From positions 182,564 to 238,419 of the forward strand of contig KQ965751.1 of assembly GCA_001574975.1 (NCBI GenBank): a stretch of DNA of 55,856 bases. Reading direction: 5' to 3'. The notes beneath the pieces were generated by a model. That model saw only the letters and a program-made list of their open reading frames with translations, searched no databases and was not told the origin of the DNA. This DNA is from Gonapodya prolifera JEL478. Lineage: Eukaryota; Monoblepharomycota; Monoblepharidomycetes; Monoblepharidales; Gonapodyaceae. Positions 18,360 through 55,856 of this stretch are shown piece by piece. The translations under genes and the position numbers were made by a program. Every line of letters starts with the position of its first letter. Within the stretch, counting starts at the first letter, position 1.

Positions 18360-19631
18360 ATGATGGAATCCCGCGACCCCGAACTCACGAAACCCTGGAT
18401 AGCCGCTAGGGATGTCCCTCGAAACCATCCTTTGTATGCGAAGTTGGTGAAGAATGGCTTGCCCGTTTCTTCTCCTCCAGCGTACAACCCGGACCCGGAG
18501 CCCGACGGCCCTGCAGCAGGATCTCTCCCTGTTCCAAAAGAATATGGCCACACACCGAAAAGTCATGTCGGTCCTCCTGGTCAGCACCGTTGGCAGGGGT
18601 CTCGCGAAACACTGTTTGCCTGAAGACGCAAGGGAGTTTGACCCGTGCGACGTCCCATTCTTATCTCATCGTGCGTTTCGGTCGCGTGCCTTCCGCAGGA
18701 TCTTAGTGGAGCCGTCGCTTGGGCTACTTCCCCTTCTTGCTGAGGCGGCAGCACATGACATTCAAAGCCACGTTGATGAGGGATTTACAATTTCGGACCA
18801 GTCCAAACCACATGATTTCATACTTCCAAACGTTTTCGGATGGCTCATCATCTTTCACGTGCTCATGATGGATATGGACAGATACGCAGCTGCGTGGTAC
18901 TGTGACGTCACAGTCACCAACGACCGGTCAAGTAATGAATTGGTTTCGCGCCGTCAAACCTCGCCGTGGTTGCGTCGACGGGTAACCTGCGGGAGTCAAA
19001 CACTCCACTATCCAGAATTGCATGAAGCTCTTCGAGGCCTGGAATAGTCGTGCCGTCCAAGGGGCACGGGAATCGCCACACAAAGTCTCCAGGGAAGTCC
19101 GACTTGTCCAAGCGCTCGACGCAGATGAAGGTCTCGATCTGCCAAGACAGCGTTGCTTTGACGTGGGCGTCGAGGTCGGTGAGGCCAAAGTACTGGATCG
19201 CGGCTCTTTGCAGGGTCGAGTCGATTGGCACCGTTCCGATACCCAAGGTGAAGAATATTTTGCTCCTTTGGCAGCAATTCAAGGCGTCCGTGGCGTCGCT
19301 GGAATTTGCATACGAAATCAAGTTTTCTCACGTCGGTGTTGAGGGAGGTGTCACAGAACGAGCTCGGGAAGAGCCCAAGGATGCCCAGGCATTTGTTCGC
19401 AATCGGCGGGACGAAATTAAAGAACAGTGCTTCGAGATGGTCTGTGCAGCAGTGGGGTGTCGCAACCTCGCTCCAAAGAAGAAGCGCGGGCGGTGCATGA
19501 TGGCCATGTACTGCGACGCTGCGTGCCAGAGAAAACATTGGGCGAGGCATAAAGCGGTGTGTAGGAAGGACTTTTGGAACGTGGATGGCATACTGCCGAC
19601 GGGGGACGGGCATTCAGAGCTGGTGTGGTAA
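18360..19631 (+). pseudogene. MYND zinc-finger protein, frameshifted (family copy A)
   Basis: Member of a local three-copy family. The N-terminal frame reads MMESRDPELTKPW ... HPLYAKLVKNGLP. Homology then continues in another frame with MATHRKVMSVLL and FRSRAFRRILVEPSLGLLP. A third frame holds FAYEIKFS and the MYND finger at the C terminus (VCAAVGCRNL, CMMAMYCDAACQRKHW, RHKAVC, RKDFW). The C-x2-C, C-x3-C and H/C ligands of the finger are all present, so the finger itself is intact. The first frame change, near 18490, could be removed only by a 34-nt intron. That intron would delete the KLVKNG segment, which the other two copies conserve, so I read it as a real frameshift. The TAG at about 19047 needs a second change. 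The central part, 18914-19321, also holds a long minus-strand open frame, which I do not support as a gene. Confidence 0.6.
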
Positions 19632-24306: not shown

Positions 24307-24409
24307 GGAGTGGAAGTGGGGTTTGTTATTTATTAAAAGTGTCAACTTGTCGTGTTGTTACTACGATTGATTACAGTCGGCAAGTTTAGTGTTGTTTGTT
24401 CGCACAAAC

Positions 24410-25834
24410 ATGTCGATCACGCAGCTTCCCCCAGAGGTCCTACTGAACATCTTCCTCAATCTTCCGCCACTCGAGTTCTTCGGCTCGGTCGCCCCCGTCT
24501 GTCGTCACTGGAGCGAAATCACACGAACTGCGCTCAGTGAAGACGGCAAAATCCCCGTGGAAGTCGGTCTCATCGTGTCGGCCTTTGTACACTACAGCGA
24601 ACCGGTCACGGCGAAAGTTTCGAGACTTTTTGGCCGGTTCAAAGTTGTCAGGGGCGTCGTTGGCGGCGTCGTTACAGGCGAAAGTCCCCCACTGAACACT
24701 ATCTTACCTGCCCTTACCACCACGAAGCTGGTGATCGCCAATGTATCACTCAGAATACCCTCACGTCTAGTGCGCACAACTCCCGTATTCACCAACCTCG
24801 CTCTTGTTGTCGACAATGCCGCCACTTGTTCCAATTGGAAATACCGGCTCATAAGGCGCGGTTTGGAACCGGTTCTGACAGCGGTAGACGTCGCTTCGGC
24901 TACTAAGCTCGTCGCAAACAATGCGGGTGGATTGATTGTGGGGTTTACGTGGGAGTTAACAGCGAGGTTTGCCTTAAGGACAGTGAAGCTTCGCCTCGAC
25001 CTCATAACAACCTGGATACGGGACGGCTTGCTTCCAGTCCATTCCGTAATAGACGCCACCGTATACTGGATAACCGCAACTCGGTCCGCGGAGCCTGTTT
25101 TCATTGACCTGTTTGTAGCATTCCCCAATTTACAAAAGCTCCACTTGGGGAGTAACTACGACGACACTGACAACACGAAGCTACTCCAGGCTGTAGCAGA
25201 CTACGGGAACTTCTCAGCTCCAGAGTCACTTGTTCAGCTTCAAACCCGCGGATTCAACCACCACCTGCCCGCCCCATCGTGGCTCATGGTACTGGCGCAA
25301 CTACTGACTAGATTCCCAAATTTGACTACCCTTGGGGACTTGGTCCTCTTCGACGATACCAACGAGCACTGGAATGGTCTTGCTGTAACAATTCCCCAGC
25401 ATGTTTTCCCTTCCTTTGCGTTTCCACCCGGTACTTCAAACGGTTGGGCACACCCCCGCATTCGTAACCTCGGTGTTGCGATCTTCCCTCGGTGGTCTGG
25501 TAACGACATGTGTGATACTGTCGTACTATCGTCGTTCGCTTCTGTGGTGGCGCGATACTTCCCAGCGGTGGAATCTCTGTCCTTCACGTTTATGCTTCCA
25601 GTACCCTTCAAACCTCTCTCGAACGTTCCGGGCGTCTTAAAAGCGTGGGAAGAGGTAGTTACCGTGCTCCCTGCGAACAGGATCAACTTTGTTGGCGAAA
25701 ACGTAGGACTTTTGTTGCGGAATGGGGAGGGAGTCGACGTGCAAGTTGCGGATACTTGGCGACTTTTTTTCGAAGGCATACGGAGGATTGGGGATCGAAT
25801 AGGCAAGAAGGTGGAGGCTGATGGAGAGTTTTGA
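24410..25834 (+). CDS. F-box protein, single exon
   Basis: An N-terminal F-box (ITQLPPEVLLNIFLNLPPLE, then FFGSVAPVCRHWSEITR) would dock to Skp1 in an SCF ubiquitin ligase. The rest, about 420 residues, is a Leu-rich repeat-like substrate region with hydrophobic periodicity but no clear repeat consensus, ending KVEADGEF. The start is taken at 24410, directly before the F-box; an in-frame ATG at 24389 would add seven residues. It is intronless, unlike most neighbours. The next 1.4 kb holds a broken tandem copy. The target is unknown. Confidence 0.82.
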   Translation: MSITQLPPEVLLNIFLNLPPLEFFGSVAPVCRHWSEITRTALSEDGKIPVEVGLIVSAFVHYSEPVTAKVSRLFGRFKVVRGVVGGVVTGESPPLNTILPALTTTKLVIANVSLRIPSRLVRTTPVFTNLALVVDNAATCSNWKYRLIRRGLEPVLTAVDVASATKLVANNAGGLIVGFTWELTARFALRTVKLRLDLITTWIRDGLLPVHSVIDATVYWITATRSAEPVFIDLFVAFPNLQKLHLGSNYDDTDNTKLLQAVADYGNFSAPESLVQLQTRGFNHHLPAPSWLMVLAQLLTRFPNLTTLGDLVLFDDTNEHWNGLAVTIPQHVFPSFAFPPGTSNGWAHPRIRNLGVAIFPRWSGNDMCDTVVLSSFASVVARYFPAVESLSFTFMLPVPFKPLSNVPGVLKAWEEVVTVLPANRINFVGENVGLLLRNGEGVDVQVADTWRLFFEGIRRIGDRIGKKVEADGEF

Positions 25835-37751: not shown

Positions 37752-38744
37752 ATGTCGATGTTGCGAACTCGAGATGTTCTGGTGATGGAAGCGAAGGACG
37801 ACCGATACAGACGCGCCATCGGAGAACTCTCGAAGCACTGGATTACCGCCAAGTCAGACCGGGGGAATGCGAAGCGGTACCAGAAGCTTGTGAACCAAGG
37901 CATGGATGTTCTCGGATGAATCCTCCCCGACGACGACCCTCAGTTCACGTCGACCTCTGTGGATGATATCGCATCACATCGCAAGGTCATGAATCTTCAA
38001 CTGGCGAGCTCATTTGGGAAAGAACTTGCCTCGCTCTGCCTCCCAGACGTACCAAAGTTTGTTCACGGGACATCACGTTCCTTGGAGAGGATGTAAACAG
38101 GTCCCGCGCGTTTCGAAGAATTATTTTTGAGCCGTCGCTACAGCTTTGTCCACGGTTTATCGAGCTGTTCGCGACGGGAATCCTCGCGGAAATAGCACGT
38201 TTGAAAGGGGAACTCACTCTTGATGAAGAGATTCCGACCATCCCAAATTGGCTAACCTTCCTGCGGTGCCTCATGGTAGAAATGGATAGGGCTACTGCTG
38301 TCTGGTACAGGGAACTGAGAACGAATGATGAACTTTTTGGTCGGTCTTTCGCAAGGCGAAACGAAAGTTTGGCCTCAGCATTCCTGGAATGTTTGAAGTT
38401 TCGAAAGCATTGTATGCGTAGTCGCGCTGGACCTTTCATTTAACTTGGATCTCGAACTTAAAAGTCATGGAGTTTGTCGAGATAGATTGGGGAAAGCTCC
38501 TGGAACATGGCGTGAAACAAAGGAAAAGATTAAGGAGTTCTCCTTTGAATCAGTGTGCGCCGCTGTGGGCTGCACAAACCTTAACCCAAAGAAGAAGTGC
38601 GTGCGCTGTCTGCAGGCCATGTACTGCGACAGCACGTGCCAAAGGGCACATTGGTCGCGACAGAAGACAGTTTGTCGGGCGGATTTCTGGAACGTGGAGG
38701 GTATATATCCTGATGGCGAATCTTGGAATGGAACAGCTTTGTGA
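37752..38744 (+). pseudogene. MYND zinc-finger protein relic (family copy C)
   Basis: The N-terminal frame has DRYRRAIGELSKHWITAKSD and AKRYQKLVNQGMDVLG, then an in-frame TGA at 37917-37919. The same frame resumes with DDIASHRKVMNLQLASSFGK and ELASLCLPDVPKFV. One base is then lost near GGGACATCACG, and RSRAFRRIIFEPSLQLCPRF follows in the next frame. After a further break, KEFSFESVCAAVGCTNLNPK and the full MYND finger (CVRCLQAMYCDSTCQ, HWSRQKTVC, RADFWNVEG) end the reading at 38744. The finger ligands are complete. The disablements differ from those in copies A and B, so each copy decayed separately. Confidence 0.65.
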
Positions 38745-39906
38745 TTTACCGAAATTATTCGTTGGCAGAACGGTGAGCCCCAATATCGGACATAGAAAGC
38801 CTTTTCTCAAGCAAACCTTTCATCGACACCGTCCCCTCACAGTTCTTTAGCCGTGAACGACTTGGAACAATATTCGCTGTGTTCGGGTCGAATTTATTTG
38901 CAGATTGCATCTACATGTATATTCCCGGTTAGTATGTATAATTCTATGTTCATCAAGATCCAAGATATTTCTTGAGGCTCCACGTCGGTAATCAAGCAAC
39001 TGCGATTGCTGGGCGGTGGTAAGCACAAGACTCAGAAGCGAAACCGCTGCCACTCGCTACATTACCTTGCGCCAAAGATGTGCGTGGCACAGTTCCGGCG
39101 GTGCTTAGGGCTGAAGAGGTAGAAGCGCGTGTTGAGAGCAAATATTAGTCTATCGAAAAGGGAGTACTTGTGTTGTATGAGGTGAATCGCTTGTGATGCA
39201 AGCGCACTGGAGATTCAGCGAGAGTGCTAGAGGAGTCGACGGACCTACCTCGCCCGGTCAACGGGACTCACCCGTCTCAGAGGAGCTACCGGGGCGTCAA
39301 AATGGATTCCTTGTTGCTCAAAGAGTATTGTGAAGATTGTTTGGAGGCTCCAAATGTAGTTTCCTGGCACTCACAGTAAGTATGGACGGCACATCAGCAG
39401 CTACTCTGCACCCAGCGCCCTGTTACCACAACGGAGTATCAATTGTCGCCCGTCTCCATTGACACGATTTTCCGTGGCAGTGGCGAATTCAATTAATCTC
39501 ATTTCGTGAAACAAGGAACAGTCCGCACCGGCATGAGCAGCGGCGGACCTTCGGTGCGCCACTACATGTATTCATTAAAAATTAAAATTTGATTGGAGTG
39601 AGCACCGCTCGCTTTCTTCCCAGCAAAAAAGTCCGGAATGAACCTGTCAGGTAATAAGAGCTCTGAGGTGGATCCGATTCATCTCTTTCCAGCAGGTTAT
39701 CACAAACGATACAGCACCGACGCTATTATTTTTGCCAAGTCTGTGAAAAAAGGTAGTTGATTCGCTTGACTTAGCCGAGCTCCCTGGAACTGTTCGTTTT
39801 TTGTCAGGGCAGTTAAAAATCGATCGTCGCCTCCTCCCGGCAATTCAAAAGGGCCCCACCGTCATCCATTCGAAACAGCCACACCTCCGAACAATCAACA
39901 TCAATC
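38745..39906. other. Intergenic, upstream of the secreted-protein pair
   Basis: About 1.16 kb without a supported gene or RNA. I looked for tRNA-like cloverleaf elements and found none. It includes the promoter side of the first secreted-protein gene. Confidence 0.4.
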
Positions 39907-40840
39907 ATGAAGTACACTCGCACACTCCTCGCTCTCGCTCTGGCCGCCTTTAGCGCCGCCGCCGTCGCTGCTCAGCAGGTCGCACTCACCTGGGATGCTG
40001 CCGCGGTGGATGCACAATGCAGAGCCGCCGTGACTGGCTCTGGCAATACGTACGATGTATGGATCCGAATGCACGTTGTTCTACGCTTCGTTTGCCGCTC
40101 ACGCTTTGTCTCGTCCGAACCAAACTTTTAGGGAAAATTCGACATCACGTATTCCGCTGGTCTGTCGGGGGCGTTATCGGGTACTATAGGATCTGGCATA
40201 ACAATCACTGCTGGAACGTACTCTGCGATGGTCAACTACACCCTTGCTCCCACCTGGTCCTTCGGCGCTTGCTGCATGTGATTCGCTGTCGCTGGAGACT
40301 TCCATACCTGCTTTCTCTAAAAGCCACCACCCTCTTCCCCCGCAGCTCTCCAACCGCTACGGGTGGCCCCAAGTTCCGATGCTGCTGCGGTGCTTCAAAC
40401 ATCGCCATTACTCCTAACGTGTCGACCGCCCCCGCCAATGTGTACGCCGCTTGCCCCGCAGGCACCGACCTTACAACTCCCATTGCCACCCTTGGAGATG
40501 GAACAAGGGTGTTCCAAAATGGTCCCATCTCGTACTGCTCTGCAGGCTCCACCGGAGGTAAGTACTGCGTAGCTACCTTTGGTTGAAAGCTACGCCTGAA
40601 GATTTCGCCCTTATCTCAGCATCTCCAGCTCCGGCACCCGCTGCCAGTGGCTCAGGCTCCTCGACAGCTGCTGGGGCAACCGGAAGTCCTTCTGCTGCCG
40701 CGACTCCTGCAGCCGCTTCCGCATCGAGCCCCAGCTCAACAGCCTCCGCAACACCTAAGGGCAATGGAGTGGGTACCAACGCTGCACTCTCGGCGCTTGG
40801 CCTTGTCGTATCGGCGGTCGTTGCAATTGTAGTGGCATAA
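39907..40840 (+). CDS. Secreted Cys-bearing protein with Ser/Ala-rich stalk and GPI-type tail (family member 1)
   Basis: Not a family I recognise. Exons 39907-40056, 40132-40277, 40346-40557 and 40620-40840 give 242 residues. A classical signal peptide (MKYTRTLLALALAAFSAAAV, cut near VAA|Q) is followed by VALTWDAAAVDAQCRAAVTG and GNTYD. Next come GKFDITYS, a Gly/Ser/Thr-rich beta-like stretch, NYTLAPTW (N-glycosylation sequon) and GACC. The third exon has GGPKFRCCCGA, YAACPAGT and ISYCSA. A stalk of about 50 residues rich in Ala, Ser, Thr and Pro leads to GNGVGTNAALS and the hydrophobic end LGLVVSAVVAIVVA, which fits a GPI-attachment signal or a membrane anchor. It is likely displayed on the cell surface or wall. 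It lacks about 22 residues of the third exon present in member 2. Confidence 0.82.
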
Positions 40841-41137
40841 TACATATGTAGGCCGAAGAGCGGAATCAATATGTATGTAAGAACGGCGAATATGTATTTC
40901 TGTTGTTCGAGAAAAATTGTCATACAATACAACCAGCATGTGAAGCATTTTGAACGCTCAAAGAAAAATGGATGGTTCTCCCTACCTGTCGGCGGTGGTT
41001 GGGATTTTTCTCCGGCTTGCAAAAATGATCGCTCCCTCACCTCCGCCACAATACCGCCTCTTATTTCAACTCATAAAGAAAGAGCCACCGATTTAGCCAC
41101 GCGCTTTTCAACACTTCACCATCGTCTCATCGCCGCG
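40841..41137. other. Spacer between the two secreted-protein paralogues
   Basis: 297 bp holding the 3' region of member 1 and the promoter of member 2. No TATA box is obvious. Confidence 0.4.
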
Positions 41138-42220
41138 ATGATACGCAGTCTTCTCCTCTCCGCCACCCTCCTCGGCTGCTCTCTCATCAGCTCCGTCGCC
41201 GCCCAGGCAGTCACCCTCACCTGGGACGCTGCAGCTGTCGACGCTCAGTGTAAAGCAGCCGTAACCGGCTCCGGCAACACTTACGAGGTATGTCGCCGCC
41301 TTCTGCCTCTTTTGCCGTCTTCTTTGCTCACGGTCAGTATGGCGTCGGAACAACTCGATACATCAGGGGAAATTCGATATCACTTATTCGTTCGGTTCGT
41401 CTGGTGCCCAATCGGGTACCATTGGGACTGGCGTCACGATCGCCGACGGGACGTTCACCGCAAACGTGAACTACACGCTCGGACCTACCTGGTCCTTCAG
41501 CGCCTGCTGCATGTGAGAGGTGGACCAGTCCTTCCTGAAACCTATATTAGTCGCTCATATGCTTCCTCCAGCTCGCCCACTGCCATGGGCGGCGCAAAAT
41601 TCCGGTGCTGTTGCGGTGCTGGCACGTTCCCCCTCAACCCCGCCACTTCCACCGCACCCACCGACGTGTACCCTATCTGCCCATCTGACACCATGCTGGT
41701 CGGACCTGTCGCCACCCTCGGAGATGGCGCTCTTGTGTATCAGTACGGACCAGTCAACTTCTGCTCCGGGTGCGACAGGGAGGCCCAGGGTGTGACCAAA
41801 TGGGACATAGCGAAAAACCAATGTGTGACGCAAAACGGTGGTACCGGTGGTAAGTCCTCAATGAGTTCTTTGTGGAGGAGAATGTTTGCTCAACCCCTTA
41901 CCGGTGACCTTGTCGAACTCACAGCTTCACCCGCACCCGCTCCTGCCACGTCCGCTGCCGCTCCCGACGCTACACCAGCAGCCGTTCCCACCCCTATTGC
42001 TTCAGCTCCCACCTCACTCTCAGCCTCAGCCTCAGCCGCCAGCCGCAGCACCACATCCAAAGCATCCACAACCACACGCGCCTCCACCTCTGCAGCCACA
42101 AGCATTGCTTCAACTTCGCCAGGTACATCGTCAGCGCAAGGAAATGGAGCTTCTGGCACCGCCGCGGTCTCGCTTGTGGGCCTTTTGCTTGCCGCAGTTG
42201 CTGCCGTCGCAGTTGTTTAA
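41138..42220 (+). CDS. Secreted Cys-bearing protein with Ser/Thr-rich stalk and GPI-type tail (family member 2)
   Basis: Tandem paralogue of the preceding gene. Exons 41138-41287, 41367-41512, 41572-41849 and 41925-42220 give 289 residues. The first two exons have exactly the same lengths (150 and 146 nt) and phases as in member 1. Signal peptide MIRSLLLSATLLGCSLISSV; then VTLTWDAAAVDAQCKAAVTG, GKFDITYSFG, NYTLGPTWSFSACC, GGAKFRCCCGAGTF and YPICPSDT. The fuller third exon adds NFCSGCDREAQGVTKWDIAK and NQC, giving three more cysteines. The stalk is about 70 residues of Ala, Ser and Thr, ending GNGASGTAAV and the hydrophobic LVGLLLAAVAAVAVV. The same cysteine spacings in both copies suggest shared disulfides. 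Function unknown. Confidence 0.82.
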   Translation: MIRSLLLSATLLGCSLISSVAAQAVTLTWDAAAVDAQCKAAVTGSGNTYEVCRRLLPLLPSSLLTVSMASEQLDTSGEIRYHLFVRFVWCPIGYHWDWRHDRRRDVHRKRELHARTYLVLQRLLHVRGGPVLPETYISRSYASSSSPTAMGGAKFRCCCGAGTFPLNPATSTAPTDVYPICPSDTMLVGPVATLGDGALVYQYGPVNFCSGCDREAQGVTKWDIAKNQCVTQNGGTGGKSSMSSLWRRMFAQPLTGDLVELTASPAPAPATSAAAPDATPAAVPTPIASAPTSLSASASAASRSTTSKASTTTRASTSAATSIASTSPGTSSAQGNGASGTAAVSLVGLLLAAVAAVAVV

Positions 42221-42609
42221 TCACAGCCATGACGCCTCAAGAACGAAGTGCTTGCATCTTGATGAACGTACAATTATATACTACCCGGGAATATGTATAT
42301 AGAAACTACAAATCAACACCCAGATACAGCGAGTATTGTTCTACGCCTTTCGCGGTGAGGTTATGGGCTGATCTCTACTTTGTGAGTCTGTCGGTCGGAG
42401 ATGAATGTTCCCCCACCGACGTGTCGCGCAGCTGTTCATTTTCCAGAATTAACATGATGTACCGAGGGGAGGCCGGAATCGAAATAATGCGATGGTGCTT
42501 GGCAACGCGGAAAGGGAAGTTGGCCGCGAACGATGCTTGGAAGACCGCTCCAAAAAATTTCGGGGCAAAATGGGGCAAAATGCTGTCCTCGCTCACCTCA
42601 CTCTTGAAA
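42221..42609. other. Intergenic, no supported gene
   Basis: 389 bp between the secreted-protein pair and the F-box gene. An open frame continues upstream of the F-box start, but shows no conserved content. Confidence 0.4.
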
Positions 42610-44012
42610 ATGCCCGATTCTCCCTCCGCCCACCTCCCGAGCGAGATTCTCTCCGCTATTTTCCTCCTTCTCCCTCCATCGCACGTATTTACTGCCGCCA
42701 CCCGAGTATGCAAAGCGTGGCACGACTCCGCGCGGTTCCTCCTCGACGAATCGGGCAAAATAGCCTTCGACGTCACCCTGATCTCCATCCAGGCGTCTCC
42801 CGCGTCCTCGATCCAGATCCCGCGGCTGCAAGGGCGCACCCACTCGGTCCACCGACGGTTTCAGCGCCTGAGCTATCGAATGGCGCGAGGAACGGTCCTA
42901 AAGGGAGTTACGGCGGGATCTGTCGACGTCTGGATGTCGCTGTCTTTTTTTGATGTTGCTGTGGGTGAGCCCGAGCGGTTAGGAGAGGAGATTGCGACAC
43001 AGTGTGGACATGGGTTGGAGCACTTGGGCGTGAAAGTCATCGTTATCGCGGCAAACGACTTCGCTTACAACTGGAAGTCCTCTCAACAAGCGTCAATGGC
43101 GGCTCTCTCGACATTCATCCGACATGCGGAGCCGGTGTCCATGTTCGTGCAACATGCGTTTGCCAAAGACTGGGCGGAGAGTGGTCTGGGGACAATCACG
43201 TCTGTCCAACATGTCAAGTGCTGCGAATTCTATCCCGAAACGTCGTGCAGGGCTCTATTTGATGTGTTTCCGAATCTCGAGTCGCTTTCAATAGGTGAGT
43301 AAATGTGGGCTGCCGCTGCGCATATGCTGATGCATATCACCCAACGAACACAGACCCAATACCCCGCGACTTTTCCAACGTGTTGAAAACAATACCTTTG
43401 ACATTGCGTTCTGTCGTAACGTCTCTCCGTGCATTCAACCGCATCCCAAAAACCCTCCCGTTTCTCTTCCGGATTTTCTGCTCCGGCGAGATCCCCTTAC
43501 TGAACGCAGTCACGCAGCTTCCCAACGTAAGACGTCTTGGTAATATGATCCTAGACTCTCAAATCTGGCGAAATCACCTGAGAAATCGGGTTTGTGAAAA
43601 CTGCCTGCATAGAATCACAGACCTCACAGTTCACGTCATGCCGAATGTGATTGCGCAGTGCACAGAGGCAAATATCGAGACTATCGCAATGCTGTTTGCC
43701 CAATTCTGTCCGGCGTTGGAAATGCTGGATGTTGTGATCGTTTTAAATCCTCATGACGAGGCGCGACCGATGGATCGGGCCCAACTGGACAACTTTCTAA
43801 AATCGTGGGAGATATTCTGTCGCACGGTACATGTGCGTCAATTCCGTGTCGATACCACCAGAGTGTGGCCAGTCGAGGTACCGGCGCCTTTGTCTGTGGA
43901 CGTGGACAATGTCTCGCAGTTGGGTGTGATTGTGGTGAACGAAGTCAAGAAGTGTGTGACCGGGCTGGGGAAACATGTCGTCGAGGAGTCTCGACCCGAG
44001 TGGGAATTTTGA
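42610..44012 (+). CDS. F-box protein
   Basis: Two exons, 42610-43294 and 43354-44012, joined in phase 1, give 447 residues. The F-box is HLPSEILSAIFLLLPPSHVF, then TAATRVCKAWHDSARFLLDE, and should bind Skp1. The remainder has Leu-rich periodicity (FPNLESLSI at the junction; LPNVRRLGNMILD; FCPALEMLDVVIVL) consistent with an LRR-like substrate receptor. It differs clearly from the 24.4 kb F-box gene outside the F-box. The start is placed at the ATG nearest the F-box; an in-frame ATG about ten codons upstream (MLSSLTSLLK) is possible. Confidence 0.8.
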
Positions 44013-55494: not shown

Positions 55495-55856
55495 ACACTC
55501 CAGACCAAGCGCACTCTCCTCGCCCTCGCCATCACAGCCTTCGGCGCCGCAGCCGTCGCAGCCGACCAAGTCACGCTCACGTGGGACCCGGGACGGTCGA
55601 CGCCCAATGTAGGGCTGCCGTCGTCCAGTCGGGCAACACGTACGATGTATGATTGCTCGAGCATCTCTCCTCGCGCGTCTGCCTTTGTCGCCTAAGGCGC
55701 TTGTTACACTACAAGGGCACATTCGATATCACATACTTGTTCGGCGTGTCCGGCGCCGCGTCGGGTACTATCGGTAGCGGGGTCGCCATCAGCGCAGGGT
55801 CCTACGACGCTGCTGTGAACTACACGCTAGGACCTGTGTGGACCTTCAACGCTTGC
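55495..55856 (+). pseudogene. Third member of the secreted Cys-bearing family, broken and cut by window edge
   Basis: The signal-peptide part (TLLALAITAFGAAAVAADQ, then VTLTWDPG) matches member 1, but no ATG occupies the start position. One base is missing directly after the TWD codons, so TVDAQCRAAVVQSGNTYD falls in another frame. The exon ends at 55646 with the same TACGAT|GTATG donor as member 1. Exon 2 starts at 55716 (GTFDITYLFGVSGAASGTIG, then NYTLGPVWTFNAC) and is intact to the edge. The exon boundaries therefore match the family. The rest of the gene is outside the window. Confidence 0.7.

Follow-up and report, generated by a model that had tools for sequence, protein, structure and literature searches.

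Two adjacent genes encode members of a protein family in which a conserved N-terminal head is joined to different C-terminal tails. They lie in tandem in the window, a stretch of 55,856 nt (C21:182564-238419) from a 47.56-Mb fungal genome in 207 contigs. We hold with moderate confidence that both are secreted surface proteins of a zoosporic fungus, in which interchangeable tethers place a non-enzymatic head at the cell wall. The evidence comprises the gene models, the family as recovered across the genome, the types of tail, a fusion of the head to chitin-binding CBM18 modules, and purifying selection on the head. The assignment to the fungi is supported by 72 genomic matches to Fungal_trans, against none in 14 control genomes, and by a Gti1/Pac2 gene in the window. 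The fungus is probably zoosporic, as indicated by matches to IFT57, a flagellar transport protein, which gives three matches over the Pfam cut-off, all on contig C16.

Structure of the tandem gene pair

Gene 1 (39907-40840) and gene 2 (41138-42220) have four exons each (Table 1), and their predicted proteins are 242 and 289 aa long. Splicing was predicted from the DNA: each of the six introns runs from GT to AG, the frames of the two genes close in phase, and the stop codons end at 40840 and 42220. The four-exon structure proposed in the initial annotation is upheld by these predictions. The features that had been listed as common to the two genes are all present, namely a signal peptide, the TWDAAAVDAQC motif, an NYT sequon, a Cys pair, a CCC triplet, a stalk and a hydrophobic end. 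Exons 1 and 2 are indeed of equal length in both genes (150 and 146 nt), and exon 3 (212 versus 278 nt) and the stalk-bearing exon 4 (221 versus 296 nt) differ, as had been described. The two heads are 69% identical, and the proposed tandem duplication is supported.

The mature protein of gene 1 contains eight Cys (Cys38, Cys97-98, Cys111-113, Cys135 and Cys163) and that of gene 2 contains ten. The additional pair of gene 2 sits in a 22-residue stretch before the stalk, and this stretch is absent from gene 1.

Substitution patterns speak for the coding reading. In exons 1 and 2 beyond residue 20, 44 of the 63 nucleotide differences between the genes fall at third codon positions, a bias which argues that the reading is real. 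Between the two heads dN/dS is 0.09, at a dS of 2.3 that is near saturation. The third-position bias, the head dN/dS and the recurrence of relatives elsewhere in the genome together argue that the pair is not a product of chance. Gene 2 is also covered by an unspliced open frame of 459 aa (window 40841-42220) that holds exon 2 in the wrong frame, so that gene prediction blind to introns would yield a false protein at this position.

Table 1. Exons of the two tandem genes and of the decayed third copy, in window positions
Feature	Position	Strand	Basis
Gene 1 exon 1, 150 nt: predicted signal peptide (~residues 1-22, AVAA/QQ cleavage) and start of head	39907..40056	+	Open frame; GT donor (GTATGG); junction shared by all six gene models
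Gene 1 exon 2, 146 nt: mid-head, NYT sequon N85, Cys97-Cys98	40132..40277	+	Splice model; 152-nt stretch around exon 2 is 74% identical to the gene 2 copy
Gene 1 exon 3, 212 nt: CCC triplet (111-113), second half of head up to Cys163	40346..40557	+	Splice model
Gene 1 exon 4, 221 nt: stalk (Ser/Ala/Thr/Pro) with a GPI-type signal at the C-terminus	40620..40840	+	Splice model; GPI-type pattern matched
Gene 2 exon 1, 150 nt: predicted signal peptide (SSVAA/QA cleavage) and start of head	41138..41287	+	Splice model
Gene 2 exon 2, 146 nt: mid-head	41367..41512	+	Splice model
Gene 2 exon 3, 278 nt: CCC triplet and latter half of head, plus a Cys loop (Cys166, Cys183) without counterpart in gene 1	41572..41849	+	Splice model
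Gene 2 exon 4, 296 nt: stalk (Ser/Thr/Ala), longer than in gene 1, with a GPI-type signal at the C-terminus	41925..42220	+	Splice model; GPI-type pattern matched
C21 g3, third family copy, decayed	55553..55856	+	No ATG at the site of the C27 start codon; exon 1 spread over two reading frames by a frameshift

A shared head with several types of tail

A genome search with the gene 1 head gave 24 exon matches at eight loci: genes 1 and 2 themselves (C21 g1 and g2), a third copy at the window end (C21 g3), three copies on C27 (g1, g2 and g3), and single copies on C90 and C91. The head of the C90 copy returned 23 matches, 22 of which lie at the same eight loci and one, a weak match (E 0.08), at a ninth on C6. 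The initial annotation had described two adjacent genes; the pair is present, and it belongs to a wider family with nine loci found in the genome. The C6 query had three weak matches outside C6 and C90. Those on C105 and C2 showed no head features by eye and no match to the head profile, and were rejected; the third, at C21:37370, had an E value of 3.6. On the minus strand of L002 the head profile scored 12.0 bits (E 0.021).

Six gene models were compared (gene 1, gene 2, C27 g2, C27 g3, C90 and C6). The introns of the head occupy the same place and phase in all six, one just before a GK/GT motif (phase 0) and the other inside the codon after CC (phase 2). The tails are of four types. Gene 1, gene 2 and C27 g2 have a stalk and a GPI-type end, C27 g3 has a short acidic end, C90 and C91 have a long tail rich in Gly/Val and GSGTGT, and C6 has two CBM18 modules. 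Read to the first stop, C90 encodes 388 aa with a tail that is 40% Gly and an Arg-rich end, the frame at the far end being uncertain. In genes 1 and 2 the stalk and the GPI signal together form one separate exon, which fits an exchange of tails.

Signal peptides and GPI signals were called with simple pattern and hydropathy rules. By these rules, which are not a trained predictor, all six models have a hydrophobic N-terminus with small residues at -3/-1. The putative cleavage site is VAA at residue 22 in five models and GAA or ANA at 22 or 24 in C6. A GPI-type pattern (omega site, spacer and hydrophobic tail) is found in gene 1, gene 2 and C27 g2, and the last 18 residues of gene 1 have a mean hydropathy of 2.67 and no charge. 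The pattern is absent from C27 g3, C6, and C90 read to the first stop. The earlier label of a GPI-tailed family therefore applies to three of the six models; it does not fit the remaining three, whose tails are acidic (C27 g3), Gly/Val-rich and ending in an Arg-rich stretch (C90), or made of two CBM18 modules (C6).

The C6 gene and a possible link to chitin binding

The C6 model encodes 260 aa in eight exons. The head is followed by two hevein-type modules (PF00187, in two stretches; E 2.9e-13; whole-protein score 50.2 bits, cut-off 27.8), and no other significant Pfam domain was found. Against a profile built from the other five heads, the C6 head scored 91.6 bits, compared with 9.2 bits for the best shuffle (1961 of 2000 scored). 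This difference and the conservation of both head introns identify the C6 head as a true relative. C6 is missing the domain's second half, with its VYPxC and TLGDG parts; the unit common to all heads may thus be no longer than about 100 residues. C90 and C6 both have a Cys at the position of Tyr49 and a single Cys in place of the CCC found in gene 1, gene 2, C27 g2 and C27 g3, a coupled change that suggests rewiring of disulfides. The numbers of Cys are odd in C27 g3 (9) and C6 (21), and hence not every Cys can pair within the chain.

Elsewhere in the genome there are at least 20 further CBM18 matches, at 12 loci; the scan that gave this number did not list the C6 modules, and 20 is thus a lower bound. 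No head was found at these 12 loci, where the best profile score over six-frame pieces of at least 15 residues was 6.8 bits (E 0.85); for reference, the exons of C6 score 20 to 48 bits with the head profile. The genes of the window contain no CBM18 (PF00187) over the Pfam cut-off, with no match for gene 1 and a weak, unrelated one for gene 2. As the fusion of head and CBM18 occurs at the C6 locus only, the putative link to chitin comes from one gene model.

CBM18 proteins have been discussed in other chytrids. Those of Batrachochytrium have been proposed, in the text available of one study, to recognise or adhere to outside chitin (PMC3569864). The hypothesis put forward in a chytrid genome paper is that they help the fungus adhere to host skin or dampen the host's recognition of chitin, and protection from chitinase is judged unlikely there (PMC5364385). 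The available passages of both papers define a 'lectin-like' class in Batrachochytrium dendrobatidis by the lack of a secondary domain (PMC3569864, PMC5364385). C6 resembles this class, as there described, in having two PF00187 modules and no other significant Pfam domain; the window genes differ from it in having no CBM18. We suggest tentatively, and with low confidence, that the head founds a modular surface-protein system of zoosporic fungi and could be an unrecognised N-terminal part of some 'lectin-like' CBM18 proteins. The head profile can be used to check the N-termini of chytrid chitin-binding proteins.

Separate genes with a single CBM18 were observed on C166, C154 and C84, with a similar module start (GRCGADRGG...CPNYGQCCSIYGWCG). 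Four of these gene copies lie on one small contig, C166, and looser variants occur on C39 and C72.

Copy history, decay and selection

Window positions 21690-50400 align with C27:236226-210277 (reversed) in stretches that keep the same order, at 74-91% nucleotide identity; the comparison ended at 50.4 kb of the window. Near g3 the arrangement has changed, with C27 g3 at 244 kb on the plus strand. A SIS-domain gene at 14-17 kb of the window has no C27 partner at E 1e-30. The heads of gene 2 and C27 g2 are 96% identical, against 69% for genes 1 and 2, and on these identities the tandem duplication is older than the block copy.

Several members have decayed. In the window this concerns g3 (Table 1). 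The window stops near the end of g3 exon 2, and the very next base opens a run of 6967 N (C21:238420-245386); a deletion relative to the C27 copy is seen on C21 beyond this gap (L005, C21:237400-247000). C27 g1 has lost the acceptor of intron 1 and Cys163 and has a frameshift in exon 3, and C91 has a frameshift at the start of exon 3. Decay thus differs between the two copies, affecting g3 on C21 and g1 on C27, and g2 is kept on both. The decay of different genes and the identity of 74-91% disfavour C27 as a mere allele of C21. C27 looks more like a diverged segmental copy of the region, a highly diverged second haplotype being the less favoured alternative.

The contig pairs C90/C91, C24/C147 and C72/C110 also resemble diverged copies, as seen from paired family genes and from paired Fungal_trans matches with near-equal scores. 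Such pairs hint that many segments are duplicated, or that a diverged second haplotype was left uncollapsed.

Between gene 2 and C27 g2, dN/dS is 0.064 in the head (143 codons), 0.105 in the loop and stalk (98 codons) and 0.29 in the last 24 codons. The head is thus kept and the anchor signal is looser, and by this comparison the gene 2 head is under strong purifying selection. Five other pairs of heads gave dN/dS values of 0.07-0.27 at a dS of 1.2 to 3.6, which is too saturated for them to carry weight. Introns 1, 2 and 3 of the same two genes are 91%, 79% and 77% identical, and the exons 82-94%. Since intron 1 is as similar as the exons, the contrast between introns and exons backs the gene model for introns 2 and 3 only.

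Proposed role of the head

From the predicted proteins we infer the following course of events. A signal peptide would export the proteins of genes 1 and 2 from the cell. The head, of roughly 140 residues, would fold with disulfides and would be raised by the Ser/Thr/Ala/Pro stalk, which is probably O-mannosylated. The GPI signal would fix the protein to the plasma membrane, and perhaps later to wall glucan. The head would serve as a reusable module, which sister genes join to two CBM18 modules, a Gly/Val-rich tail or a short acidic end, and the tail would decide where it is located: at the membrane or glucan, at chitin, in the matrix, or free. What the head does in all these places is most likely to bind or to pack, without catalysis, either at the cell wall or on a substrate that bears chitin or polysaccharide. 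Selection keeps the head while GPI, chitin-binding and matrix-like tails come and go, which argues for a module that is delivered to different places in the cell wall. A conserved head whose tethers are exchangeable and include a chitin-binding one would be a concrete candidate, suited to expression, for a protein with which a zoosporic fungus makes wall or surface contact.

A structural function is possible, if doubtful. The head would then pack or cross-link inside the wall of the fungus's own sporangia or cysts, with the layer of the wall set by the tails. Chitin-binding modules, GPI-type ends and Gly/Val-rich repeats among the tails are consistent with this, as are the many Cys. The strong purifying selection between the two copies of gene 2 points the same way, and is not the diversification expected at a host interface.

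There is also a limited chance that the genes belong to an ordinary fungal family which already has a name in other resources, such as InterPro, PANTHER or fungal genome papers. The collections searched were Pfam, NCBIfam, PHROGs, PDB, and viral and prokaryotic sequences, which leaves room for such a family. Pfam is broad, yet within its limit of E 10 (filters drop most matches above about 0.1) no match was listed for gene 1, and gene 2 had only a weak one in the stalk (E 6.1), which we took as chance. Nothing significant was found in NCBIfam for the two members searched (best E 0.053), in PHROGs for six members (best E 0.073), or in PDB by sequence or profile (best E 0.33). Individual matches were rejected as chance: the SurE model of NCBIfam against C6 (E 0.053), DUF4148 of Pfam against the C90 signal peptide (E 0.17), and MspA, HydC and others in PDB (E at least 0.33). 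Scans of viral contigs and prokaryotic genomes returned 10 and 88 pattern stretches, respectively, and detected no relatives. A description of the head was not found in the available text of the literature searched by topic words. The initial view that the head belongs to no named family, to be given up on a strong match to a known domain family, survives the searches of Pfam, NCBIfam and PDB; 'unrecognised' is to be read relative to Pfam, NCBIfam, PHROGs, PDB, the prokaryotic genomes and the viral contigs.

An adhesin role of genes 1 and 2, suggested in the initial annotation, is plausible from their layout. Signal peptide, Cys-bearing N-terminal head, Ser/Thr-rich stalk and GPI-type end make up the general layout of fungal adhesins and GPI-anchored wall mannoproteins, as outlined in the available text of PMC6023273. 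The adhesion hypothesis for CBM18 proteins (PMC5364385, in the part available), together with the fusion of the head to CBM18 in C6, also speaks for it. That they are adhesins proper, with the head on its GPI stalk binding host or substrate surfaces during zoospore encystment, is nevertheless rather unlikely in our judgement. The stalks are short, at about 51 residues in gene 1 and 84 in gene 2, and show no internal repeats beyond composition, the best self-match being reached by 200 of 200 and 62 of 200 shuffled stalks. In the available text of PMC3502224, putative adhesins of Batrachochytrium are defined by signal peptide, GPI, repeats and glycosylation, the repeats amounting to two or more regions, each of at least 9 residues; by the shuffle test, which is not RADAR, the stalks of genes 1 and 2 lack such repeats. 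The GPI-type end is absent from three of the six models, its place in these sister proteins being wholly taken by other tails, and the head has no sequence relatives in Pfam or PDB, which further separates the family from GPI-anchored fungal adhesins.

Other identities were rejected. Hydrophobins have eight Cys spaced C-CC-C-C-CC-C. The mature gene 1 protein also has eight, including a CC pair, but in the order C-CC-CCC-C-C, and none of the six proteins matches the hydrophobin spacing. For CFEM, no Pfam match was listed at a limit of E 10 for gene 1, gene 2, C6, C27 g3 or the C90 head.

Across the six heads 31 columns are invariant, among them four Cys (38, 97, 98 and 111 of gene 1). Three invariant columns are charged (D32, K86 and R88 of the head, residues 54, 108 and 110 of gene 1), a single one is acidic, and neither His nor Glu is invariant; this pattern speaks against a hydrolase or a metalloenzyme with His ligands. 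The layout of the genes recalls X325-like proteins, which also combine a stalk with GPI, and after cleavage behind VAA the C90 protein alone would start with His. A secreted enzyme on a GPI stalk, such as an LPMO- or X325-type polysaccharide oxidase that depends on copper, is still very improbable. Copper proteins of this type have a His at the mature N-terminus plus a second His; the predicted mature N-terminus is Gln in genes 1 and 2 and Asp in C27 g3, the heads of genes 1 and 2 contain no His, and no Pfam enzyme family matches.

AlphaFold2 models of contiguous readings of the window had a mean pLDDT of 43.2 and 58.7, too low for use, and the model at 43.2 had been read through intron 1 of gene 1, so that it includes 25 intron-encoded residues and does not represent the real protein.

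Genomic setting

Genes with a MYND finger and an F-box-like domain flank the pair, at 38397-38741 and 42607-43299, and more genes with MYND and F-box lie at 19026-19628 and 24371-25831 of the window. The F-box gene region adjoining gene 2 recurs on C77 and C41. Upstream of gene 1, window positions 39232-39323 belong to a dispersed repeat of ~90 nt that occurs on many contigs at 82-89% identity.
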